A stretch of DNA of 43,983 bases from an uncultured Verrucomicrobiota bacterium (GTDB lineage Bacteria > Verrucomicrobiota > Verrucomicrobiia > Palsa-1439). This document shows, one piece after another, positions 30,051 through 43,983 of this stretch (within the stretch, counting starts at the first letter, position 1; each line of letters begins with the position of its first letter). The position numbers and the translations under genes are program-made. The notes beneath the pieces were generated by a model. It was not told the origin of the DNA. It did no database searches and saw nothing but the letters and a program-made list of their open reading frames with translations. The stretch lies in the NCBI GenBank assembly GCA_903847335.1, contig CAINDI010000017.1:1-43983 (forward strand), in the 5' to 3' direction.

Positions 30051-30087
30051 CTTGACAGTTCACTGCCGGATTTGCTGTATTGTCAAG
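30051..30087 (+). promoter_or_regulatory. Candidate promoter with overlapping palindrome for the cytochrome operon
   Basis: TTGACA (30052-30057) and TGTATT (30076-30081) are separated by 18 bases and lie about 80 bp upstream of the first cytochrome gene. CTTGACA (30051-30057) and TGTCAAG (30081-30087) also form a perfect 7-bp inverted repeat framing the promoter, a possible operator spanning -35 to -10. No sigma-54 -24/-12 element was found here, although an NtrC-type regulator is encoded at the other end of the cluster. The rest of 29988-30160 contains no gene. Confidence 0.5.
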
Positions 30088-30160
30088 TAGGTGGCGTAAG
30101 GTCGATTCCTCGAAACTACAACAAGGTCGCCGGGGTGTCGAAATTTTCGGTGGAGATTGC

Positions 30161-31651
30161 ATGAGCGTGGCTGAGAAAAAACCGTCTTTAATTCAGAACT
30201 GGATTAGTGTCGCTGGCTTGATTGTGGCCACCGGCAGCTTATTTGCCATGCTGTGTTTGATGGCGATGGATTTCTTTTCCGCCTCGAAGAATCCGTACAT
30301 CGGCATCGTCACGTACTTCGTCGCACCAGCATTCCTCGGACTCGGTTTGTTCGTCATCGTGGGCGGGATGTTGTTTGAACGGCATCAACTGATTCGCAGC
30401 CAGCAAGGCGTGGTGAGTTGGTTCCCGGTGGTGGATTTGAATCGTCCCCGGCACCGGCAAATCCTCGGCAGTCTCATCGGATTCGGTGTCGTGCTGCTGC
30501 TGGTCATTGCGGTCAGCAGCTACCGGAGCTACCATTTCACCGAGTCAAAACAATTTTGCGGGCAAACTTGCCACACAGTGATGAAGCCGGAATTCACCGC
30601 CTACCAAAACTCGCCGCACGCCCGTGTCACCTGCACAGAATGTCATATTGGTGCCGGCGCGACCTGGTTTGTGCGCTCGAAACTTTCTGGCAGCTATCAG
30701 GTGTACGCCACGCTTTTCCATAAATATCCGACACCGATTCCGACGCCGGTGAAAAATCTCCGCCCGGCACAAGAAACCTGCGAACAATGCCACTGGCCGC
30801 AGAAATTTTACGGCGCGGTGGAACGCGTCCGGACGCATTTCAAATATGATGATGAAAATTCACCGTACACGGTTCGTTTGCTGTTGAAAGTTGGCGGCGG
30901 CGATCCGTTGCACGGACCGGTGGGCGGAATTCACTGGCACATGAACGTCGCTAACAAGACGGAATACATTGCGTCCGACGACGCCCGGCAGGTGATTCCG
31001 TGGGTGCGTATGACCGACCGCGATGGTCGCGTCACCACCTATGAAGTCAAGGAAGGCCGGCTGAAACCAGAGCAAGTCGCGGAAGCCACGCCGCGTCGGA
31101 TGGATTGTATTGATTGCCATAACCGGCCGACGCATATTTTCCGGTCGCCAGATGAAACGGTGGATATGGCGATGATGCTCGGACGGATTGACCCGAAGTT
31201 ACCGGCGATTAAGAAGCACGCGGTCGATGCCTTGGCGGCGGATTACACCGAAACCGAAGACGCCTGCCGGCAGATTGCGGAGAAATTGCAGAAAGATTAT
31301 CCCAACGCCGCCACCGGTACCGTGACGCGGGCGATTGTGGAATTGCAAAAGATTTACCGGGATAATTTCTTCCCGGAAATGAAATCCCGCTGGAAAGCTT
31401 ATCCGAACAACATCGGCCACTTTGAATGGGCTGGTTGCTTCCGGTGCCACGATGACCAGCATGTGAGCGCCGATGGCCGGAAAATCTCCGCCGATTGCAA
31501 GAGTTGCCACGTGATTATCAGTCAAGGCGCGGCGACGGAATTGAAAACGATTAGTTCACAAGGTTTGGAATTCGAACATCCCGCCGAAGAAGTCGGCGAT
31601 ACATGGAAAGGAATGAAATGCAACGATTGTCACAGCGGTGGCGCAATGTAA
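30161..31651 (+). CDS. NapC/NirT-type seven-heme membrane cytochrome c
   Basis: This 496-residue protein has two N-terminal transmembrane segments (about 15-40 and 50-75) and a third near 115-135, then a periplasmic heme domain. There are seven heme sites: one CX3CH (CGQTCH) at the NapC/NirT entry (FCGQTCHTVMKPEFTAYQNS) and six CXXCH (CTECH, CEQCH, CIDCH, CFRCH, CKSCH, CNDCH). It should pass electrons from the quinol pool or the cytochrome b below to periplasmic carriers. The start at 30161 (MSVAEKKPS) is chosen because the upstream frame lies in the promoter region. It overlaps the next cytochrome gene by 34 bp. Confidence 0.92.
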   Translation: MSVAEKKPSLIQNWISVAGLIVATGSLFAMLCLMAMDFFSASKNPYIGIVTYFVAPAFLGLGLFVIVGGMLFERHQLIRSQQGVVSWFPVVDLNRPRHRQILGSLIGFGVVLLLVIAVSSYRSYHFTESKQFCGQTCHTVMKPEFTAYQNSPHARVTCTECHIGAGATWFVRSKLSGSYQVYATLFHKYPTPIPTPVKNLRPAQETCEQCHWPQKFYGAVERVRTHFKYDDENSPYTVRLLLKVGGGDPLHGPVGGIHWHMNVANKTEYIASDDARQVIPWVRMTDRDGRVTTYEVKEGRLKPEQVAEATPRRMDCIDCHNRPTHIFRSPDETVDMAMMLGRIDPKLPAIKKHAVDALAADYTETEDACRQIAEKLQKDYPNAATGTVTRAIVELQKIYRDNFFPEMKSRWKAYPNNIGHFEWAGCFRCHDDQHVSADGRKISADCKSCHVIISQGAATELKTISSQGLEFEHPAEEVGDTWKGMKCNDCHSGGAM

Positions 31652-32748
31652 TTATTGCCGGCACGATTTTTTTAACTGGGCTGGTGCGGGCGGACGTGAC
31701 GAATGAAGTCGCGGCCAGCGTGCATGCCGAACTCAAGTGCGCCAGTTGCCATGCCGGCAAATTGGAAAGTAAACGCGCCATCGCGGAGATGTGCGCGTCT
31801 TGTCACAGCGACGTCCGGCGGATGAATCCTTACGGCTTGCCGACGGATCAATTGGCCCGGTACAAAACCAGCAAACACGGCGAGCAATTATTTGAGCACA
31901 ACGACCAAAATGTCGCGGTCTGTACTGATTGCCACGGCACGCATGACATTCTGAAAGTGAAATCGCCACAGTCGCGCGCGTTCCCGACGAACATTCCGGC
32001 AACCTGCGGCCGGTGCCACAGCGATGCGAAGTTGATGAGCCAATATAAATTGCCATCGGATGTTGTGGACAAATACAAAACCAGTCATCATGCGCACTTG
32101 CTGCTTGAGAAAGGCGATCTCAGCGCGCCGACTTGTATTACTTGTCACGGCAATCACGGCGCAACGCCGCCCGGCACGGCTGAAGTCGGCCAAGTCTGTG
32201 GAAAATGTCACGTCCGGCAGCGCGAATTATTCGCCAAGAGTCCGCATGCCGAAGTTGCCACCGCCGGTGCATTTAACGAATGCGTTAGCTGCCACGGCAA
32301 TCATGCGATTCAAAAAGCGTCGGTGGAACTGTATGCGAAAGCCTGCACTGAATGTCACGCCAACGATCCAAAACAATTGAAAGTGCGCGATGCCGTCTCC
32401 GGTCTGATTCGTCAGGCGCAAGCCGATTACCGGCACGCTGAGGAAACGGTTCACGCCGCGACGATTCGCGGTTTGGCGACCGACGACGATCAAGTGTTAT
32501 TGCAAGATGCGAAAACGCAAGTCACGCAGCTCGAAGTGCTGCAGCACACCTTGACAATGGCTCAACTGGAACCGGTGGCACAGCATTCCGGAGAAACCGT
32601 CGCTCAAGTACTGACCGATGTCCGACATATGGAGCGGTTTGAGTTATTGAAACATAAGGCGCTCTGGCCTGTCTGGGCGTTCTTAGTGATGATGGCCATT
32701 ATTTTCTGGGCGAAACACCGGCAATTGGAGAAGCAAGATAAACCATGA
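31618..32748 (+). CDS. Eight-heme, C-terminally anchored cytochrome c
   Basis: This 376-residue protein has a signal peptide (MQRLSQRWRNVIIAGTIFLT), eight CXXCH sites (CASCH twice, CTDCH, CGRCH, CITCH, CGKCH, CVSCH, CTECH) in about residues 35-260, a helical spacer, and a C-terminal membrane anchor (about 345-365; LWPVWAFLVMMAIIFW) ending in basic residues. CHGNHG/CHGTHD repeats resemble octaheme and decaheme electron-transfer cytochromes. The start at 31618 is preferred to the ATG at 31603 because GGAAAGGA lies just before it. It takes the place that cytochrome c1 or f has in standard bc complexes and is therefore the probable electron acceptor of the Rieske protein (inference). Confidence 0.92.
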   Translation: MQRLSQRWRNVIIAGTIFLTGLVRADVTNEVAASVHAELKCASCHAGKLESKRAIAEMCASCHSDVRRMNPYGLPTDQLARYKTSKHGEQLFEHNDQNVAVCTDCHGTHDILKVKSPQSRAFPTNIPATCGRCHSDAKLMSQYKLPSDVVDKYKTSHHAHLLLEKGDLSAPTCITCHGNHGATPPGTAEVGQVCGKCHVRQRELFAKSPHAEVATAGAFNECVSCHGNHAIQKASVELYAKACTECHANDPKQLKVRDAVSGLIRQAQADYRHAEETVHAATIRGLATDDDQVLLQDAKTQVTQLEVLQHTLTMAQLEPVAQHSGETVAQVLTDVRHMERFELLKHKALWPVWAFLVMMAIIFWAKHRQLEKQDKP

Positions 32749-33182
32749 AAACCTCTGAGAAAATTTCCCGACGCACATTTCTAGATTGGCTACTGATGGG
32801 CGGCCTCCTCGCGTGGGGCACGGCGTTTGTTGCACCGGTCATCACCTACGTCTGGCCATCGCAAAAGCGCGGGCCGAACTCGCAAACCGTTTCCGTCGGC
32901 AAGGTTGACGACTTCACGGAGTGGCAACACAAGATGGTGGCGCTGGATAACAAGCCAGTTATCGTCGTCCGCACACCGCAAGGTTTTCGGGCTTACTTGG
33001 CAATCTGCACCCATCTCGGCTGCATCGTCGGCTGGGATGCCGGGCGCCGGCAGATTGCATGTCCGTGCCATGCCGGATTTTTTGATTTGAACGGTCGGCC
33101 TGTTGCCGGTCCGCCGCCGCGGCCGCTGGCGGAACAAACTGTCGTCGTGGTTAACAACGAAGTCATGGTGAAATCCACATGA
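32745..33182 (+). CDS. Rieske [2Fe-2S] protein
   Basis: This 145-residue protein starts with a twin-arginine-like leader (KISRRTFLDWLLMGG), which also serves as membrane anchor, as is usual for bc-complex Rieske subunits exported folded by Tat. The cluster is bound by CTHLGC (about 90-95) and CPCHAGFFD (about 107-115), with the GPPPRPL Pro loop following. It overlaps the cytochrome genes on both sides by ATGA. It accepts electrons from quinol oxidised at the cytochrome b Qo site. Confidence 0.95.
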   Translation: MKTSEKISRRTFLDWLLMGGLLAWGTAFVAPVITYVWPSQKRGPNSQTVSVGKVDDFTEWQHKMVALDNKPVIVVRTPQGFRAYLAICTHLGCIVGWDAGRRQIACPCHAGFFDLNGRPVAGPPPRPLAEQTVVVVNNEVMVKST

Positions 33183-34339
33183 GTCTAAAATTACCTAACA
33201 AAATTCAAAACTGGCTGAGCCAACGCTTGCCGGTTGAAACCGCCGAACAGTTTATTGACGAGCAAACCCACAAGCCGATGCCGGAGGCGACTGGTTTTTT
33301 GCATACGTTTGGCAGCTTGTCGCTGTTTTTGTTCATTAATCAAGTCGTGACCGGCATTTTGCTGATGGTGTATTACCGGCCGACGACGAACACTGCCTTT
33401 GAGAGCATCCGGTTCATCATGACGAAGGCGCATTTCGGTTGGTTCATCCGTGGACTGCATGCTTGGGGTGCGACGCTGATGATTCTGTGCGTGCTGATTC
33501 ACATGATCCGGACATTCTTCATGGGCGCATTCAAAAAACCACGCGAGCTAACGTGGGTGCTCGGTGTAGCCATCTTCGGTTGCACAGTCACCTTCGGCTT
33601 CACCGGCTACTTGCTGCCGTGGAATCAACTTTCCTATTGGGCAACTACTGTCGGAACGGAGATTACCGGCGCAATTCCATTCGTCGGGCCGTACCTGCGG
33701 ACATTATTGCGTGGCGGCGAAAGCATCAGCGGCGAAACGCTGGCGCGCTTTTTCGTCTTGCACGTGGTGGTTCTGCCGTGGGCGCTGACGGCATTGATTG
33801 CCACACACCTATTCCTGATGCGCGTTCAAGGTCTCGCAACGATGGAAAAAGTCGGCGAAGAAAAACATATCGATGAGCACGATGCCGTGCCGTTTTTTCC
33901 GCATCACGTTTTGAAAGAAGGCGTGATTCTCTGTGGCTTACTCGCCACACTCATCACATTGATTGTGGTCTGGCCGGTCGAGTTAGGCGAAAAAGCGAAT
34001 CCGCTAGTGACACCGGAAGGCATCAAGCCCGAATGGTATTTTCTTTCCACCTACCAACTCTTGAAATACTTCCCGAAGACAATCGGGTTGTTTGTGTCGC
34101 TCATTCCGCAGGTTCTGCTATTGATCTGGCCGTTCTTGGATCGCACACCGGAACGCCATCCGAAGAAACGCCCAATCTCGGTTACCATCGGTGTCGTCGC
34201 ATTACTATTGGCAATTGTGTTCGGATTTGTCGGGTATATGTCTGAGAGCACAATCACTTGGCGCGGTCAACGCTATGAGATTGATGTGCGTGGTGTTCCG
34301 CATCATAGCGAGACAAAAGCAGCACCGCACTCAAACTAA
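33179..34339 (+). CDS. Fused cytochrome b (b6 plus subunit IV-like)
   Basis: This 386-residue protein has about eight to nine membrane segments. The heme b ligands are paired as His-x13-His (HAWGATLMILCVLIH) and His-x14-His (HVVVLPWALTALIATH); the 14-residue spacing in the second pair is the b6-type rather than the bc1-type arrangement. The Qo motif is intact as KPEWYF near residue 285. The N- and C-terminal halves, split in b6f complexes, are joined here. With the Rieske and multiheme proteins it forms a quinol:cytochrome c oxidoreductase in which no canonical c1 or f is encoded. It ends 6 bp before the convergent response regulator. Confidence 0.94.
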   Translation: MSLKLPNKIQNWLSQRLPVETAEQFIDEQTHKPMPEATGFLHTFGSLSLFLFINQVVTGILLMVYYRPTTNTAFESIRFIMTKAHFGWFIRGLHAWGATLMILCVLIHMIRTFFMGAFKKPRELTWVLGVAIFGCTVTFGFTGYLLPWNQLSYWATTVGTEITGAIPFVGPYLRTLLRGGESISGETLARFFVLHVVVLPWALTALIATHLFLMRVQGLATMEKVGEEKHIDEHDAVPFFPHHVLKEGVILCGLLATLITLIVVWPVELGEKANPLVTPEGIKPEWYFLSTYQLLKYFPKTIGLFVSLIPQVLLLIWPFLDRTPERHPKKRPISVTIGVVALLLAIVFGFVGYMSESTITWRGQRYEIDVRGVPHHSETKAAPHSN

Positions 34340-36979: not shown

Positions 36980-38200
36980 ATGAATCTCGATAAAATTTAT
37001 ACGGATCTCACGATCCCGAACGAATCCAAAATCGCGCTCGTCGTGTACGACGGCGTCGGCGATATCGCCACCGAATCCACCGGCTTTCGCACTCCGCTCG
37101 AAGTCGCCAAAACTCCTAATCTCGACGCGCTCGCCAAACACGCCGCAATGGGCCGTCTGACGCCCGTCGCGCCCGGCATCACTCCCGGCAGCGGCCCCGG
37201 CCACCTCGGCTTGTTTGGCTACGATCCGCTCGAATTTGAAGTTGGTCGTGGCGTCATCGAAGCGCTCGGTCTCGGCATTGAACTCAAAGCCGGCGACATT
37301 GCCGCCCGCGCCAATTTCTGCACGCTCAACGCCAAAGGTCTGGTCACCGACCGGCGCGCTGGCCGCATCGACACCAAAGTTTGCGAAGCACAGGTCGAAA
37401 TCCTGAAAAAGAAAATCAAAAAAATCGGCGATGTCGAAGTCATCATCAAAGCCGGTAAAGGCCACCGGTTCGTCGTTGTATTTCGCGGCAAAGGACTCGA
37501 AGGCCCGCTCACCAATTCCGATCCCGGCCGCGAAGGCCAACCCATCGGCGTTGCCAAGCCGATTAAGAAAACCGCCAAGACCACCAAGACCGCGAAAATC
37601 GTTGCCGAGTTTTACAAACAAGCGTTGCCGCTCTTGAAGAATTGCCGGCCCGCCAACGGCTTCCTCCTCCGCGGCATCGCCCACCAGCCGCACATTCCGA
37701 GTTTCCAAGACCGGTACGGCCTGAAAGCGGCCTGCATCGCGATTTATCCGATGTACAAAGGTCTCGCCCAACTCGTCGGCATGACCAAAATTGAAGGCGC
37801 GCACTCGCTCGCCGAGGAATTTGAACTCGCCGTTAAAGCGCTCAAAACTTACGACTTTGTTTTCATCCACATCAAGCCGACCGACGCCGCCGGCGAAGAT
37901 GGTAATTTCGCCGCGAAAGTCGCCGCCATCGAAGAAGCCGATGCCGGCCTTGCGACCTTGATCGCCGCGCAACCCGACGTGCTCGTCGTGACCGGCGACC
38001 ACTCCACACCGGTGCCGGTGAAAGGTCACAGTTGGCATCCGCAACCGGTATTAATCGCCAGCGAAATTTCCGGCTGGGACGGCATGGAACGTTTCACTGA
38101 ACGCGCCGCCAACCACGGCAGCCTCGGCATCTTCGACGCGAAATATCTCATCCGCTTCATGCAAGCCAACGCCAAGCGCTTCGACAAATTCGGCGCGTAA
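36980..38200 (+). CDS. apgM: Cofactor-independent phosphoglycerate mutase, archaeal-type
   Basis: This 406-residue alkaline-phosphatase-superfamily enzyme interconverts 3- and 2-phosphoglycerate. LVVYDGVGDIA holds the first metal ligand, GITPGSGPGHLGLFGYDP carries the nucleophile Ser of ApgM, followed by HIKPTDAAGEDG and VTGDHSTPV plus KGHSWHPQPVLI, the second metal site. The start at 36980 has GGAG at 36969-36972. CCGG is somewhat less frequent here than in the preceding genes, but codon style is otherwise the same. It is the last gene before the repeat-bounded segments, and its stop lies 2 bp before the ACTGA tandem repeat. Confidence 0.95.
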   Translation: MNLDKIYTDLTIPNESKIALVVYDGVGDIATESTGFRTPLEVAKTPNLDALAKHAAMGRLTPVAPGITPGSGPGHLGLFGYDPLEFEVGRGVIEALGLGIELKAGDIAARANFCTLNAKGLVTDRRAGRIDTKVCEAQVEILKKKIKKIGDVEVIIKAGKGHRFVVVFRGKGLEGPLTNSDPGREGQPIGVAKPIKKTAKTTKTAKIVAEFYKQALPLLKNCRPANGFLLRGIAHQPHIPSFQDRYGLKAACIAIYPMYKGLAQLVGMTKIEGAHSLAEEFELAVKALKTYDFVFIHIKPTDAAGEDGNFAAKVAAIEEADAGLATLIAAQPDVLVVTGDHSTPVPVKGHSWHPQPVLIASEISGWDGMERFTERAANHGSLGIFDAKYLIRFMQANAKRFDKFGA

Positions 38201-38202
38201 AA

Positions 38203-38226
38203 ACTGAACTGAACTGAACTGACTGA
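38203..38226 (+). repeat. ACTGA tandem repeat next to repeat copy 1
   Basis: Four perfect ACTGA units (38203-38222) plus CTGA run straight into the 44-bp core of copy 1. ACTGA is also the first five bases of copies 2-4, so this may be expansion of the left end of the same element. Confidence 0.8.
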
Positions 38227-38268
38227 AATTGCTTTTGGGGACCGAATCACGCTTGCGCAGGGGGGTTA
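38225..38268 (+). repeat. 44-bp dispersed repeat, copy 1 (variant left end)
   Basis: The core from GAAATTGC to GGGGGGTTA is identical to the other three copies. The left flank differs (ACTGACT in place of ACTGATAG) and the base after TTA is G rather than A. It follows an intact apgM and no gene is cut here. The minus strand of every copy encodes a start codon followed by IRSPKAIS, which creates artificial gene starts. Confidence 0.95.
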
Positions 38269-38376
38269 GTTTTTTTACTTGTTTTTTTTTTGAACCTTTT
38301 GTATTCTAAGGGTCACTAATACCAAAACAGCACGAGCTGTTTGAAACACTAACCAAACACTGAGGAAAAGAGTGGC

Positions 38377-38877
38377 ATGAAGAAAAAACTAGCAGTAGTT
38401 GCAATGATCGTGGTTGTCGGCGTGGCCAGCGGTTGGGCGGCCCAAACAACCGTGTTGAACAAGATGGACATCACCTTGAAGGGGAAACTGACTCCGGGTG
38501 GAGCCGCGGTGACCGGGGCAACCTTGGCGGGTAACACGAATGCAATCTCGCACTTGATCTTGCAGGTCGTGAATGCCGGCACGACGAACGAAGTCGAGGC
38601 GATTGGACAGGTCAGCGGGACGAATATCACTGTCTTGTTGACGCAAAAAGCGAGTGTCGATCTCGTCAATACGCCGAAGAGCGATAAGTTCGTTGCGGCC
38701 TTCGAAGGCACCGCCGGTTCGGCGAAAAACGCTGTGTTGCTGATCAATGGGACGGTGAAAACGGCGACGACGAAGACGGCGACGAACGTCACTCTCGCGG
38801 GGACGTTCAGCGGCATCTGGACGGATGGCAGCAATACGGTCGCGGGAACGATTGCCAGCGTCAAAGTGAAGAAGTAG
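38377..38877 (+). CDS. Secreted hypothetical protein, beta-rich
   Basis: The N-terminal signal peptide is MKKKLAVVAMIVVVGVASGWAAQ (cleavage after GWA or WAA likely). It is followed by about 143 residues rich in Thr, Ala, Val, Asn and Gly, with alternating polarity suggesting an all-beta fold (NKMDITLKGKLTPGG, LAGTFSGIWTDGSNTVAG). There are no Cys residues and no known motif. GAGG at 38361-38364 serves as ribosome site, and a strong terminator follows, so it is a single-gene unit. Codon choice looks GC-rich but with fewer CCGG than 1-38.2 kb. I do not recognise the family. Confidence 0.75.
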   Translation: MKKKLAVVAMIVVVGVASGWAAQTTVLNKMDITLKGKLTPGGAAVTGATLAGNTNAISHLILQVVNAGTTNEVEAIGQVSGTNITVLLTQKASVDLVNTPKSDKFVAAFEGTAGSAKNAVLLINGTVKTATTKTATNVTLAGTFSGIWTDGSNTVAGTIASVKVKK

Positions 38878-38911
38878 TTTCTGGTTGCGCGTCGCGCAAT
38901 CGTAGCAGACA

Positions 38912-38949
38912 ACGGGGAAGGCGTTTTACGCTTTCCCCGTTTCTGTTTT
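38912..38949 (+). terminator. Rho-independent terminator of the secreted-protein gene
   Basis: ACGGGGAAGGCG pairs with the CGCTTTCCCCGT region across a TTTTA loop (one G-T pair), followed by TTTCTGTTTT. A separate compact palindrome, TTGCGCG-T-CGCGCAA, lies just before it at 38885-38899. Confidence 0.8.
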
Positions 38950-38984
38950 CAGTCAGCGGAGTGATGCACTCAGCCGGCGAGCCT

Positions 38985-39677
38985 TCATTGAGCGTTGAAC
39001 GAATTCAGCGCGTCTTGGGCGGCTTCGCGGACTTCGGCGTCGCGGTCCGTGAGCAGGCGCCGCAACAACGGCAAGGCGCGTTGGTCGCCCAGCGTGTCCA
39101 GGGCGCGGATGGCGGCTTTGCGGACCTCCGGCGGTTGCGCTTGGTCCGCGCCGAGGGTGATTTCCTGGAAGGCCGACGGGTGGTCGAGATTGGCCAACTC
39201 GTTCAGGATGTCCGCTTTCACTTCGACACTGGTTTCCGCGCGCAACATGCGCCCGAGCGTGCTGGCCACCTGCGGGTCGGAGACGCCGGCGTCGGTCAGT
39301 TCACGCACGCGCAGGACGATAGTGGAACGACCGTTGTTGTCTTCCGTTGTCTGATAGGATTTCAACGCGGCTTGCAAGCGTGTGTCGAGATACTGAACCG
39401 GCACATCGGAACCCAGTCCCGCGGCGAACACCGAGTCGGTATCGGCTTGGGGCACGGCGGTGGGCGTTTGGTTTGTCGCGGCGCTGTCGTGAGGGTTCTT
39501 TGTGGAGAGCGCTGCACCGGGTTGCGGTTGCAGTGTGGGAATCGCGGGGACCTGCTTGCTGACGTGCCGGGGCGAGTTGGTGGACGGAACGTCGGATTCC
39601 ATTGCGGGCTGGCCGCAGCCACACAGTGAACCCACGAGCAGCGTCGCGACAATTGCCAGTGGCATCAAGTCCTTCAT
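38985..39677 (-). CDS. HEAT-repeat lipoprotein, second copy of this architecture
   Basis: This 230-residue protein has a signal peptide with lipobox SLCGC (Cys about 20), a long Pro/Thr/Ser-rich linker (about 25-75) and C-terminal HEAT repeats: SVEVKADILNELANLDHP, PEVRKAAIRALDTLGDQRA and AEVREAAQDALNSF. Layout, size and repeat phrasing match the lipoprotein at 9451-10086, which suggests the same phylum even though it lies beyond repeat copy 1. It probably mediates protein binding at a membrane. No functional partner is adjacent. Confidence 0.82.
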   Translation of the reverse strand: MKDLMPLAIVATLLVGSLCGCGQPAMESDVPSTNSPRHVSKQVPAIPTLQPQPGAALSTKNPHDSAATNQTPTAVPQADTDSVFAAGLGSDVPVQYLDTRLQAALKSYQTTEDNNGRSTIVLRVRELTDAGVSDPQVASTLGRMLRAETSVEVKADILNELANLDHPSAFQEITLGADQAQPPEVRKAAIRALDTLGDQRALPLLRRLLTDRDAEVREAAQDALNSFNAQ

Positions 39678-39780
39678 GCGCGAATTTTATCGCAGTGGCC
39701 GGCCTCAGCGTCAATCGCGGATTTGTGATGACTGACAATGGGCGCGGGCAAAATTCCAATTGCGCCGCTAGCCGGGCGAG

Positions 39781-39808
39781 TTGCCGATTTGGGAAAGGTG
39801 CATACTGT
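39781..39808 (+). promoter_or_regulatory. Candidate sigma-70 promoter for the PAS-protein fragment
   Basis: TTGCCG (39781-39786) and TACTGT (39803-39808) are 16 bases apart, with GAGG (39815-39818) as ribosome site before the ATG at 39827. It is moderately similar to consensus. Confidence 0.4.
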
Positions 39809-39826
39809 CTTGTTGAGGTAACGAAG

Positions 39827-40046
39827 ATGAATGGGCAAGAACAAATTCGGCCGCCGGTGGCGTTTCCGAAGGTGCCGGCGAAGTTGCCGTTGCCGCCGAC
39901 GGACGAATTGTTTCGGCTGTGGGTGGAGGCGGCGCCGGATGGGATTGTGATCGTGGATCGGTCGGGCCTGATCCAATTTGTCAATGGGCGGACGCGGGCG
40001 CTGTTTGGGTACAGTGATGCGGAGTTGCTTGGGCAGCCAGTTGAGG
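39827..40046 (+). pseudogene. PAS-domain signalling protein, cut off at repeat copy 2
   Basis: Seventy-three native residues are present. A Pro-rich start (MNGQEQIRPPVAFPK) leads into a PAS domain: LWVEAAPDGIVIVDRSGLIQFVNGR, then ALFGYSDAELLGQPVE. PAS domains normally run on for another 60-70 residues and are followed by a kinase or cyclase output domain. Here the sequence meets the repeat at 40047, whose bases supply one more codon and a TGA at 40049-40051. A proper promoter and ribosome site are present, so the gene was intact in its source genome. Confidence 0.88.
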
Positions 40047-40099
40047 ACTGATAGGAAATTGCTTTTGGGGACCGAATCACGCTTGCGCAGGGGGGTTAA
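40047..40099 (+). repeat. 53-bp dispersed repeat, copy 2
   Basis: It runs from ACTGATAGG to GGGGGGTTAA and is identical over 53 bp to copies 3 and 4. The PAS-protein gene is interrupted at its left border. To the right, 40100-40217 is AT-rich noncoding sequence downstream of the glycosyltransferase gene. No target-site duplication is visible. Confidence 0.97.
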
Positions 40100-40217
40100 T
40101 AACCTCTTGGCTTCAAATCCGATAATCATAGTTTGGTCAATTAAGTGGTTGCATTGATGGAATCCAGCAGTTACAGAGGCTAAAAGTAATTTTTTTTTCA
40201 GTCATGCAAAATTTTCG

Positions 40218-41279
40218 CTACCCGGTAATCTTTCTGAATAGATGAAGGTATTCATTCAGGTTGGTTTCCCAGGAAAATTTAAGCGAATACTGTTTTAGTA
40301 CTTCAGGGAGGGATTTGTCTTTGTCGAATGCTTCCATATTTTCCAGAAAAAAGCGGGCCATCTCCACAGGTTCAAATGTTTTCCAGTAGTAGGCATGCTT
40401 GTCACAAACTTCAGGGATACTCGAAAAAGTTGAAGCAAATACGGGCTTTCCGAATCGCATGGCTTCAATGGGAGGCAGGCCCATACCTTCAAATCTGGAG
40501 GGGAAAAGTACCGCCTTGCAGTGGTTGTACATCCAGAATTTGTCTTCTTCAGAAATGGTGCCTGGAAGAATGATTCTTTCACTCAGACCCATTGCATCGA
40601 TTCTCCGCCACAATTCTTCCGCGTACGCTGAAGAGTTGTTTCCAGCCATGATTAACTTATAGTTTTCAGGTAATTGCTGCATGAATTCCAAGAGTACACC
40701 AAGGTTTTTCTTCATTTGGATCACACCTATGGAGAAGAGAAGATCTCCATCCGGGACAAACGCAGGTGGGTTAACCTGACCGGAATTTTTAACTGTCACC
40801 CCGTTGTAGATCTTATGGATGGGGGTTTTTCCGATGTGCAGGTTCTCCCTGACAACTCCTTCTGTAAACTTCGATATGACCGTTATTGTGGTTGCCCGGT
40901 CCACTTTTTTCTGCAAAATCTTCAGCCTTTTTTTTGCCTTTGCGGGCGATTTCTCACCCAGAAAATTCAGGTCGTGAATGGTTAGGATGTAAGGCGTATT
41001 TAGATCTGAAGGGAAATAGGCCGAATCCTGGTGCAGGGCATACCACAGGTCATATTTTCTGCACAAGGAAGGGAAGTACCTGCGCCGCAGTGAGACGACC
41101 TCATAATCCACGAGATTTCCGAAGTATCCTTTGAATTTGCGGGGTACTAAAAGCGTAAATCTGAATCGCTCATCCACAATCCTGCTGATTCCCTCACCGA
41201 AAAACAAGGCAACCTGTCCGAGGCCGGTATTTAGATCCTTGAGCCTGTCGAGATCAATCAATATCGATAATTTATCCAT
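40218..41279 (-). CDS. Family 1 (GT4-type) glycosyltransferase
   Basis: This 353-residue GT-B enzyme has an N-terminal domain with YILTIHDLNFL and ITVISKFTEGVV, and a C-terminal nucleotide-sugar domain with LFSIGVIQMKKNLGVLLEFM, PGTISEEDKFWMY and LFPSRFEGMGLPPIEAM. The last is the E-x7-E donor-binding motif of GT4 enzymes. There is no membrane span. It probably adds a sugar in surface polysaccharide synthesis. Composition and codon use are clearly more AT-rich than in 1-38.2 kb and the style is Bacteroidota-like. It lies 11 bp downstream of the deacetylase fragment, probably in one operon of a polysaccharide locus. Confidence 0.92.
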   Translation of the reverse strand: MDKLSILIDLDRLKDLNTGLGQVALFFGEGISRIVDERFRFTLLVPRKFKGYFGNLVDYEVVSLRRRYFPSLCRKYDLWYALHQDSAYFPSDLNTPYILTIHDLNFLGEKSPAKAKKRLKILQKKVDRATTITVISKFTEGVVRENLHIGKTPIHKIYNGVTVKNSGQVNPPAFVPDGDLLFSIGVIQMKKNLGVLLEFMQQLPENYKLIMAGNNSSAYAEELWRRIDAMGLSERIILPGTISEEDKFWMYNHCKAVLFPSRFEGMGLPPIEAMRFGKPVFASTFSSIPEVCDKHAYYWKTFEPVEMARFFLENMEAFDKDKSLPEVLKQYSLKFSWETNLNEYLHLFRKITG

Positions 41280-41290
41280 TTCATCTTTTT

Positions 41291-41852
41291 TCAGAACATC
41301 CTGACCCTGCCTTTTTTTAGCTTTGTTTTAAATGTCCAATCCGAATCAGTACCCTTGATATCAATTCGTTTCAGTTCGAACCTGTTTGTCGTACCCGGAT
41401 GATTGCACCTGTTTCCGATGCGCAATCCAGCAAGGATGCCATTCCTTTCCAGGGTACTGAAAAATGCTTGCTTTTCCGGCTGTTTCCTTGGGTATGCGCC
41501 ATAGGGATAGGCAAGAACCGGTACAAAGGGAATATTGTTTTCCGAAAGAATCGTGAAACAACCGGACAGATCCCTGGCGACTTCCGCGGTAGTTAATGTG
41601 TTATAGCTTTGATGGGCATAAGAATGCAACCCGAATTCGACATATTGCGCCTCCATTTGGCGAAGATGGACAAAATCCAACAGCGGCATTGGAGGTTCTG
41701 TTTCCCACTCGCTGGTAAGTCCGATGTATTTAACGGGCAACATGATGGATGCATGAAGCTTGTATCTGATTAGCAAGGGATAGAGTAATTCGAAATTATT
41801 CAGGTATCCGTCGTCGAAAGTGATCAGAAGTGGTTTTTCAGGAAATCTGAAA
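41291..41852 (-). pseudogene. NodB-type polysaccharide deacetylase, 5' end lost at repeat copy 3
   Basis: The frame is open from the repeat border at 41852: FRFPEKPLLITFDDGYLNN carries the catalytic/metal Asp pair of motif 1 (TFDDG), EFGLHSYAHQSY is motif 2 (H-x3-H zinc ligands), and LAYPYGAYP is motif 3. About 187 residues remain. The N-terminus before TFDDG (usually 30-100 residues, often a signal or anchor) is missing because the repeat replaces it. The protein would N- or O-deacetylate a cell-surface glycan. No start codon lies upstream of TFDDG on this side of the repeat, so the gene is cut rather than short. Confidence 0.88.
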
Positions 41853-41905
41853 ACTGATAGGAAATTGCTTTTGGGGACCGAATCACGCTTGCGCAGGGGG
41901 GTTAA
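41853..41905 (+). repeat. 53-bp dispersed repeat, copy 3
   Basis: It is identical to copies 2 and 4. Its left border cuts the deacetylase gene. Its right border coincides with the stop codon of the FkbM protein (TAA is the complement of 41902-41904, inside the repeat). No target duplication is seen. Confidence 0.97.
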
Positions 41906-42807
41906 TGCTTCACTGCCCTTATCAGTCCCCGTCTAAAATATGGAGGTTGTAATCTGGGGTCATGATACATCAGGATGTAGCCATCGGAATGAGAGGTTTC
42001 AAATCCGTGGTTTCTTAATATCTCTGTAAACAGTTTTTCATCTTCTTGTTTGTGATAAGTGCAAATGGCTAATTTTAAGTGATTTGTATTTTGAAGAATT
42101 CTTTTAGCCCCCTTTATAAGTTGCATCTCAGCTCCTTCAACATCAATCTTTAGAAATGAGACCTTTTCATTCTCGGCAAAAAAGTCATCAAGAGTCGTGA
42201 AACCTTCGTTTGTGATGTCACCAACAAATTTTCGAATTATCGTCACCTTCTCCTTCCAGGGTTCAAAAGTTGCGTTCAGTGCCTCCACCCATCTTTCATC
42301 GCTTTCGAAAAGAATAACCTTTGAGACTTTCTCAATAACGCTCAATGCAAAATTACCTTCGGCAGCACCCACATCAACAAGCACGTCCCCTTGATCAATT
42401 TTGAAATCTCCATTTTCATAGCAGTGGGGACAAACAGGATCCTGTTCCTTCAATAATCCATTGAAAGCTTTTTTGATCCTGAGCTTATTCCATTTCTTTT
42501 TAAAATAGAGTCGCTTGCCATCGAGCAAGACATATTTCAAACCTTTCTCCTTATCACTGAAAACCTTAATATCAGTAGGAATATATTTGTCCAAAGCGTA
42601 ATAAGGAAAATTAGTTACAGCTTTTTTCCGCAAATAATCAAGAACAGTTTCAATTTCACTGTCTGGAGGGGTGGGCAAATTACTATAATAGGTAAAAATA
42701 GAACTGCGCACAGCCCTTTTCAGCAATACCTTATGGATAAATTTTGGAACGACTGCCCTTAAAAATTTCGATGTAACTATTCTCATTCTGAACTTTTTAT
42801 AAATCAA
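41902..42807 (-). CDS. FkbM-family SAM-dependent methyltransferase
   Basis: This 301-residue protein has a basic helical N-terminus (about 1-40), a middle region ending with CPHC, and then the SAM-binding core: VLVDVGAAEGNFALSVIEK (motif I), ILFESDERW, TTLDDFF and FLKIDVEGAEMQLIKGA, the IDVEGAE hallmark of FkbM. It probably O-methylates a sugar of a surface glycan. The C-terminus YFRRGLIRAVKH looks like a natural family end, but the stop codon itself is provided by repeat copy 3, so a few residues might be lost. The segment is the most AT-rich of the window and Bacteroidota-like. It lies 11 bp downstream of a second FkbM gene. Confidence 0.9.
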   Translation of the reverse strand: MIYKKFRMRIVTSKFLRAVVPKFIHKVLLKRAVRSSIFTYYSNLPTPPDSEIETVLDYLRKKAVTNFPYYALDKYIPTDIKVFSDKEKGLKYVLLDGKRLYFKKKWNKLRIKKAFNGLLKEQDPVCPHCYENGDFKIDQGDVLVDVGAAEGNFALSVIEKVSKVILFESDERWVEALNATFEPWKEKVTIIRKFVGDITNEGFTTLDDFFAENEKVSFLKIDVEGAEMQLIKGAKRILQNTNHLKLAICTYHKQEDEKLFTEILRNHGFETSHSDGYILMYHDPRLQPPYFRRGLIRAVKH

Positions 42808-42818
42808 TAATGAGAAGC

Positions 42819-43510
42819 TTACTCCATAATGGCATATAAATCAAAATGTTTCCATTTTAACATATCGGTTTCGTTCAAAATCGGGATAATTTCAGCATTG
42901 GCTTCAAAATCAGAAAAATAGTAAAGGGAATACCCTTTATCTTTCAATAAATGAAAATGTTCGAAACGCTCCTCGTTGGTGTTCCTAAAAAAGCACTCAG
43001 TGATAACGACCGGTTTGTATTTATCCAGTAGGCTGGAAATAGATTTAATTATTTCTTTGTCATAGCCTTCTGTATCTATTTTGATCAGTTTCAGTTTATC
43101 GATCCGGTCAGGGAAATTCTTTTCAAGGAACGATTCAAGAACAATACCTTTGATTTTATCTTTAAAGGTGTATTTTCCATGTTTGCTGCTTTTATCGCGC
43201 GAGATCCCTCCGTTGCTGAACGAAGCTTCCGACGAATAATAATAGAATTCCTCCTCCTTGTCGGTAATGGCACAATTGAAGGTGTTGATATTGGTTTTAT
43301 CGGCGTTTAATTGGGAATTCTTCACAAGGATTTCATAGACATATGGGTTAGGGTCGAAAGACAGGGTTATGCCGGTTTTACCTGTTACCAAACCAAGCTG
43401 AAGAGACTCATGTCCAATGTTAGCACCAATGTCGATGGCCGTATCGCCCTCTTTTAAAAACCGACTAAAGAATTTAACACCTGCGCTTTCTATTTTTCTG
43501 TTCAGGAAGA
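42819..43510 (-). pseudogene. FkbM-family methyltransferase, 5' end lost at repeat copy 4
   Basis: About 230 native residues remain. The sequence enters at FFLNRKIESAGVKFF, only some 20 residues before motif I DTAIDIGANIGHESL, and continues with LSFDPNPYVYEIL and LKLIKIDTEGYDKEII (FkbM IDxEGxE-like hallmark, with Tyr for Ala and Asp for the final Glu). Members usually carry more residues before motif I, so the start is missing. The open frame can be extended to an ATG at 43544, but those first residues (MIRSPKAIS) are encoded by the repeat and are an artefact. It is co-directional with the other FkbM gene. Confidence 0.87.
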
Positions 43511-43563
43511 ACTGATAGGAAATTGCTTTTGGGGACCGAATCACGCTTGCGCAGGGGGGTTAA
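43511..43563 (+). repeat. 53-bp dispersed repeat, copy 4
   Basis: It is identical to copies 2 and 3. Its left border cuts the second FkbM gene. On the right it continues into GGGGGGACGG and the noncoding tail of an IS91-type element, which makes this copy the only one next to a recognisable transposon. Confidence 0.97.
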
Positions 43564-43758
43564 GGGGGGACGGAAAATTTCGACGGATTCCGTATCGCCC
43601 ACCTGTTTTGGCTGCCTCCAGTTTGCAAAATGCAATTTCTTTTCCTTTCTTGCGCATGATTTACGCTCACTGACAGCGGAGTGCAAGAAAAAAACAGATG
43701 GTCCGACATGCAGGTGCGGGGCAAGCTGGAAGCTTACCCTATCGGGGCAAGACCGATT
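43564..43758. other. Noncoding stretch between repeat copy 4 and the transposase
   Basis: No gene is visible. A small palindrome, TTGCA-AAA-TGCAA, occurs near 43623-43635, and a CACT...AGTG stem followed by CAAG lies near 43667-43686. IS91-family ends carry short hairpins next to CAAG or GAAC, so this could be the terminal region of the element downstream of its transposase, but the match is weak. Confidence 0.35.
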
Positions 43759-43983
43759 CTATTCGGCGAATGTTTCGTCGGGGCAAAACGGCTGATCATT
43801 GTCGACCGGCGCGTAGGTGAGTTCGAGCCGGAAGGGTGGTTCCGGTGGAGCCAGTCCGCTGGGGCCGTCTGGCTCTTCCCAGAGATTCAGATGGCGGAGG
43901 ATGTCCTCAATTACCTGCCGGTCCTCGATCAACGAGATCAGCCGCATTTCCCCACCGCATTTCGGGCAGAGCAGCGGATCGGT
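43759..43983 (-). mobile_element. IS91-family transposase, C-terminal end (5' part outside window)
   Basis: The frame reads TDPLLCPKCGGEMRLIS, then FIED-like LIEDRQVIEDILRHLNLWEE, and stops at 43759-43761. CPxCGGxMxxI.FIEDxxVIxxILxHLGLW is the usual C-terminus of IS91/Y2-type rolling-circle transposases. About 74 residues are visible. The extra tail, Pro-rich and then acidic, is variable in the family. Composition is GC-rich again. The zinc-ribbon end alone cannot show which IS91 branch it belongs to, and whether the element is complete cannot be seen. Confidence 0.8.

Follow-up and report, generated by a model that had tools for sequence, protein, structure and literature searches.

What assembles four identical short repeats, with unrelated DNA between them, at the end of a bacterial contig? 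The question is posed by contig C17 (43,983 nt; analysed at full length and called the window here), which comes from the genome of an uncultured Verrucomicrobiota bacterium (G000; 177 contigs, 2.35 Mb, of which C147, C148, C150, C159, C162, C169, C175 and C177 are wholly N in sequence). An earlier note, made from the sequence of the window, had claimed four repeats in one orientation, with the intervening DNA changing from GC-rich to AT-richer to strongly AT-rich. Both statements were borne out. A repeat search of the window returned four copies in the same orientation at spacings of 1830, 1806 and 1658 bp and no comparable family elsewhere in the window. Copies 2-4 are identical over 53 bp (ACTGATAGG...GGGGGGTTAA), and copy 1 retains the core with an altered tip (Table 1). 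The GC content of the three segments between the copies is 0.585, 0.439 and 0.374, against 0.555 in the first 38.2 kb of the window. Within the genome the exact 41-bp core is confined to C17, and four exact copies of 41-44 bp cannot be a product of chance. The repeat proves to be the terminal module (about 51 bp) at the oriIS-type 3' end of an IS91-family rolling-circle transposon.

The transposon was recognised when the whole region was compared with its own genome by BLAST, which gave two informative matches, on contigs C79 and C142. One end of C79 overlaps the end of the window exactly, with 138 identical bp, and carries the rest of the transposase gene. The domains Y2_Tnp (8e-23) and Zn_Tnp_IS91 (6e-18, the N-terminal zinc-binding domain) were detected in the C79 transposase, together with an HUH motif (FHPHIHA) and a Y-x3-Y pair (YYGWY); the genome holds one copy of the transposase at E <= 1e-30. 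Because the transposase reads towards copy 4, this copy represents the 3', oriIS-type end of the element. By its transposase, the position of this end and the tip, the element belongs to the IS91 family. The array is polar, in the order transposase gene, module 4, segment 3, module 3, segment 2, module 2, segment 1, module 1. The chain of four repeats proposed in the earlier note is therefore present but incomplete: the DNA to the right of copy 4 belongs to the 3' end of a transposon whose remainder lies on a different contig. Of the two readings offered there, that of a short mobile element gathering foreign DNA after the manner of cassettes is borne out, and the element can be identified by its IS91-family oriIS-type ends. 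An attC/integron reading was ruled out by the identity of the copies and by the IS91 transposase. A WYL/WCX-domain regulator, divergent from the transposase, is also part of the element (L029:3-992 and L027:4425-4835), and its 54% homologue accompanies the transposase at locus L040 of genome G243.

The second match, on C142, contains the repeat in diverged form twice, 1124 bp apart; copy 4 and the 250 bp to its right are matched there as well, at 87% identity. C142 holds an internally deleted relative of the element, whose 3' end is fused to a 5' part with the tail of the regulator. Copies within one array are identical, and the C17 and C142 arrays differ at about 7% of positions. The C142 array is flanked by p142 on one side and by a dehydrogenase gene and then ubiE on the other. 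Since p142 and ubiE lie about 0.4 kb apart in the relatives G004 and G010, the C142 array lies in conserved native surroundings. The dehydrogenase gene (hydroxyisobutyrate-dehydrogenase-like, L027:4842-5741) is itself too long for that gap.

These matches bear on the other reading of the earlier note, that unrelated fragments were fused at the shared 53-bp sequence during assembly or library preparation. The segments do differ in phylum and composition, genes are cut at the repeats and the chain stands at a contig end, as a chimera would have it. Overlaps between contig ends in this assembly, however, are exactly 141 bp in two cases (138 bp between C17 and C79), which points to de Bruijn assembly with k = 141, so that the 53-bp repeat was spanned by every k-mer joining its flanks. 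Overlaps of 300 bp between several small contigs were discarded as runs of N. Arrays of the same anatomy but with other sequences were seen in unrelated assemblies, those of at least 15 genomes, and many of them lie within contigs of 60-160 kb. The neighbours of the C142 array, p142 and the gene beside ubiE, keep their order in relatives. The repeat belongs to a transposon and is not a linker. No full match to it was obtained in plasmids, phages, E. coli genomes or the paper library, and a linker, vector or adapter was ruled out once the diverged copies had been found in C142. An assembly or library chimera is very unlikely.

Recurrence across the class was surveyed in 384 genomes. Related transposases were present in 23 of them, and in relatives the tip AAAGCAA(A/T)TTCCTATCA is found downstream of the transposase. 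A scan for the terminus motif matched 73 of the 384, with up to 100 copies in one genome, while the reversed-pattern control gave 2 matches. The comparison of arrays drew on regions from 20 loci and on the larger arrays. Each lineage has a private module of 33-75 bp (about 33-56 nt in most lineages). The core, allowing up to 3 mismatches, was absent from the 57 related genomes searched, this genome excepted, and exact cores were not found in the genome and viral collections scanned; the exact-core scans missed relatives because the modules are lineage-specific.

In the best-sampled lineages the modules are sharply bounded. At the left edge, identity between copies falls from 100% to about 30% at column 54 in G008 (13 copies), 55 in G002 (11), 37 in G317 (6), 53 in G258 (4) and 49 in G314 (3), and less regularly in G354, G166 and G327. 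The tetranucleotides at this edge are TAAC, TCAC, TGAC and TTAC in most lineages (TNAC, as against GNAC in IS801) and are less clear in G166 and G354. The right edge is the tip, followed in most lineages by a dinucleotide constant for the lineage (GT, TT, CT or AT). Clear hairpins were predicted in the modules of G314, G258 and G008. On contig C220 of G008, nine identical modules stand within 9.5 kb, and the segments between them range from 28 to 62% GC, with a cargo that includes an exosortase, an FkbM methyltransferase, a PIG-L deacetylase and an M48 peptidase. A DNA search for segment 2 of G008 in relatives returned the modules alone. Empty units, in which two modules are split only by the lineage dinucleotide, occur in G008 C220 (9458/9514), G002 C170 (5045/5101) and G314. 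At G008 L037:3843-3915 an inverted copy of the 18-bp tip stands before the second module of the array, and the two together make up a mini-element whose terminal inverted repeats are perfect; this suggests a fold-back event on single-stranded DNA. Genome G147 (L149) carries 100 copies of the terminus motif on the two strands about equally, with variable sequence upstream in the part of the places that was retrieved, possibly an expansion of IS91-type ends like that of miniature inverted-repeat transposable elements.

The segments of the window differ in origin. Contiguous genes of one Bacteroidia metagenome-assembled genome (MAG) match the glycosyltransferase and the deacetylase of segment 2 at 89% and 88% identity, and segment 2 is of Bacteroidota origin. 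In a Prolixibacteraceae MAG, a 64% relative of the segment 3 methyltransferase lies at most 3 kb from a 69% relative of the segment 2 glycosyltransferase; given this proximity, the same kind of polysaccharide cluster was probably the source of both segments. Segment 1 is host-like in composition, and two genomes of the host's family contain 45-54% relatives of its 166-aa protein. The cutting of genes at the repeats, described in the earlier note, was seen at 40046 (PAS protein), 41851 (polysaccharide deacetylase) and 43508 (FkbM methyltransferase).

Miniature IS91 ends might instead have been inserted independently into one contiguous region, with nothing captured or moved. Sharp-edged solo modules that could insert anywhere do exist, and a native origin is conceivable both for segment 1 and for the DNA left of module 1. 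On the other hand, the flanks of modules 2 and 3 differ in phylum or gene, and the Bacteroidia homologue retains the deacetylase start, about 80 codons, that is missing at module 3. Modules 2 and 3 are therefore no simple landing in contiguous DNA. Nor would independent insertion yield the uniform polarity of the arrays: among the places listed, neighbours within 5 kb share their orientation in 32 of 32 pairs from 15 genomes, pairs of one array not being independent. Such an origin is scarcely credible.

Table 1. Features of the repeat array on C17 and of the adjoining IS91-family element (window coordinates except where a locus is named)
Feature	Position	Strand	Remarks
Module 1, most distal copy	38216..38268	+	44-bp core 38225-38268 intact, tip ACTGACTG for ACTGATAGG
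Segment 1	38269..40048		GC 0.585, host-like; 166-aa secreted protein, HEAT-repeat lipoprotein, PAS protein; right end GGAC, a putative target
Module 2	40049..40099	+	TGATAGGAAATTGC...GCAGGGGGGTTAA in transposed-strand orientation
Segment 2	40100..41854		GC 0.439, Bacteroidota; right end AAAC
Glycosyltransferase of segment 2	40221-41279	-	
Polysaccharide deacetylase of segment 2	41294-41851	-	without start
Module 3	41855..41905	+	
Segment 3	41906..43512		GC 0.374, Bacteroidota-like; right end GAAC
FkbM methyltransferase of segment 3	41905-42807	-	
Second FkbM methyltransferase of segment 3	42822-43508	-	without start
Module 4	43513..43563	+	the IS91-family element's own oriIS-type end
3' part of IS91-family element	43564..43983	-	transposase leftward; 43983-43846 are the last 46 codons present on C79
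Remaining transposase gene on contig C79	L029:1036-2364		with divergent WYL regulator

The order of the segments follows the polarity of the element. Arrays with an adjacent transposase run outward from its 3' side. Three arrays of this family have both a visible transposase and several segments; in each of them the segments nearest the transposase are foreign in composition and those farthest from it host-like (GC from proximal to distal 0.376/0.439/0.585 in G000, 0.324/0.604 in G008 and 0.431/0.601 in G002). This order matches what is expected of one-ended accretion, by which the oldest segments should lie next to the transposase. The arrays have probably arisen in this way, with miniature ends acting as new origins and the segments representing successive former residences of the element.

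For the individual steps we infer the following course. The element would insert at an NNAC site, and its Y2/HUH transposase would start rolling-circle transfer at the TGATAGG tip (window + strand). Transfer would often end at the first GTNA just beyond the module, producing miniature one-ended copies, which would go in after NNAC targets. Once such a copy had landed 1-2 kb upstream of an element already in place, it could serve as a new start point, and the next transfer from this origin would take the intervening host DNA and the older element to a new site. One segment would be gained with each move, and the oldest would adjoin the transposase. For C17 the itinerary would comprise two stops in Bacteroidota DNA, in the same kind of polysaccharide gene cluster, and then one in host-like DNA.

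The behaviour of IS801 provides a precedent for several of these steps. Miniature right-end products with GNAC-type left ends account for 26% of IS801 transpositions, its transposase acts in trans, 0.3-1.4 kb of adjacent DNA can be carried along, and GAAC, GGAC, CAAG and CGAC have been recorded as targets (PMC3189936). The modules fit miniature products of this type, since their right end is intact and their left edge is, in most lineages, TNAC. On C17 (window + strand), GGAC, AAAC and GAAC stand left of the tips; on C142 the tetranucleotides are TAAC and AAAC. Of these, GAAC and GGAC are known IS801 targets. Module 1, the copy with the altered tip, directly follows four AACTG(A) repeats at window positions 38200-38224 (AGTTC when read on the opposite strand), which may reflect repeated cutting or slippage at a GTTC target.

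Two further routes to such arrays were considered. The IS91 transposase could have excised or copied each unit of segment and module alone, perhaps in circular form, and placed it at the GT beside an existing module in the manner of an integron cassette. The regular succession of GT, insert and module would suit this route, as would the empty units of G008 C220, G002 C170 and G314 and the identity of modules within arrays together with their divergence between arrays. One-ended capture, however, should leave left ends of TNAC or GNAC type, and in the orientation of the transposase the segments begin with target-like GTnn; these starts appear to be target flanks, which favours a nested history. 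In addition, no cassette was common to two arrays in a small and fragmented sample, and the foreign-proximal, host-distal order is not predicted. Separate movement of cassettes is accordingly rather unlikely. Alternatively, homologous recombination could have joined unrelated regions through identical ends dispersed over the genome. Some genomes do have many identical 51-bp ends, and most IS801 fragments of P. syringae have been ascribed to reorganisation (PMC3189936). The homology is short, however, and neither new exact-edged copies nor nine-module runs in 9.5 kb are to be expected from recombination, which makes this route highly improbable.

Several observations weigh against accretion as proposed here. 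Nine genomes with a homologous glycosyltransferase, mostly Bacteroidota, contained 1 terminus motif in all; with ends nearly absent from these donor-like genomes, it is the captured DNA by itself that speaks for a passage through Bacteroidota. The composition gradient comes from three arrays, and in other lineages (L105, L111, L189) the segments are host-like throughout, so that foreign capture is not the rule. No pair of arrays was found that shares a proximal part and differs distally, as accretion predicts, in the small and fragmented sample available. The hairpin expected of an oriIS is weak in the modules of G000 itself. An empty site at base level was found neither for an array nor for a solo module; for C17 in particular, the genes downstream of phosphoglycerate mutase in relatives do not match the right-hand genes of C79. 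Finally, the joins of the window array were judged from assembled contigs, and some doubt about these particular joins remains.

Elsewhere in the window, at 30080-34339, genes for a multihaem cytochrome c, a Rieske protein and a cytochrome b form one run that is followed by an NtrB/NtrC-like pair, as judged from sequence motifs in the list of open reading frames.

Among characterised systems, IS91 and IS801 share with this element a Y2/HUH transposase with a zinc-binding domain, an essential origin end located 3' of the gene, miniature right-end products, the capture of upstream DNA and, apparently, targets of NNAC type (PMC3189936). IS801 fragments, however, measure 229-679 nt and are scattered, whereas here the miniature end measures about 33-56 bp in most lineages, with a left edge fixed for each lineage, and forms long same-orientation arrays that enclose captured DNA on the side of the origin. 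ISCR elements and complex class 1 integrons are likewise IS91-related and have repeated units bounding different acquired genes, and TTCCTAT is common to the ISCR1 oriIS (GTGGTTTATACTTCCTATACCC, PMC13023784) and the tip described here; in ISCR arrays the whole element or the 3'-CS is repeated, whereas here the terminal module alone is. With integron arrays the likeness lies in the head-to-tail succession of insert and short recombination site, starting with GT. Unlike those of integrons, the repeats are identical rather than variable and fold only weakly, the units are often 1-3 kb long with cut genes, and the leader is an IS91 transposase; no integrase was identified at the array, and no search aimed at intI was made genome-wide. 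Helitrons such as Helraiser are also rolling-circle HUH elements that capture flanking DNA, by terminator bypass (PMC4778049). Capture there passes the terminator, whereas here DNA would accrue outside the origin end via extra copies of the origin. The literature covered describes one-ended IS91/IS801 products, ISCR models and Helitron capture, and not such arrays. What appears to be new is the array itself, in which copies of a mini-origin follow one another in a single direction and enclose captured DNA; subscription papers lay outside the scope of the literature, and its novelty is therefore not proven.

How IS91 and ISCR elements collect genes is an old question, answered so far mostly with circumstantial evidence, and it bears on the gathering of resistance genes. 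The sharp, lineage-specific ends of these arrays in many environmental genomes constitute a natural record of capture and allow the process to be tested directly, since the sequence shows in what order the segments stand, how old they are and where they came from. They show passage of DNA between Bacteroidota and the distant lineage of the host. Assemblies broken at such ends will hide the arrays, or the arrays will pass for chimeras. We see an even chance that these arrays are a rolling-circle counterpart of integron arrays, in which a mobile origin of about 50 bp, spread by IS91-family transposons, would gather, order and carry the DNA of successive hosts, and the array would record an itinerary across phyla.

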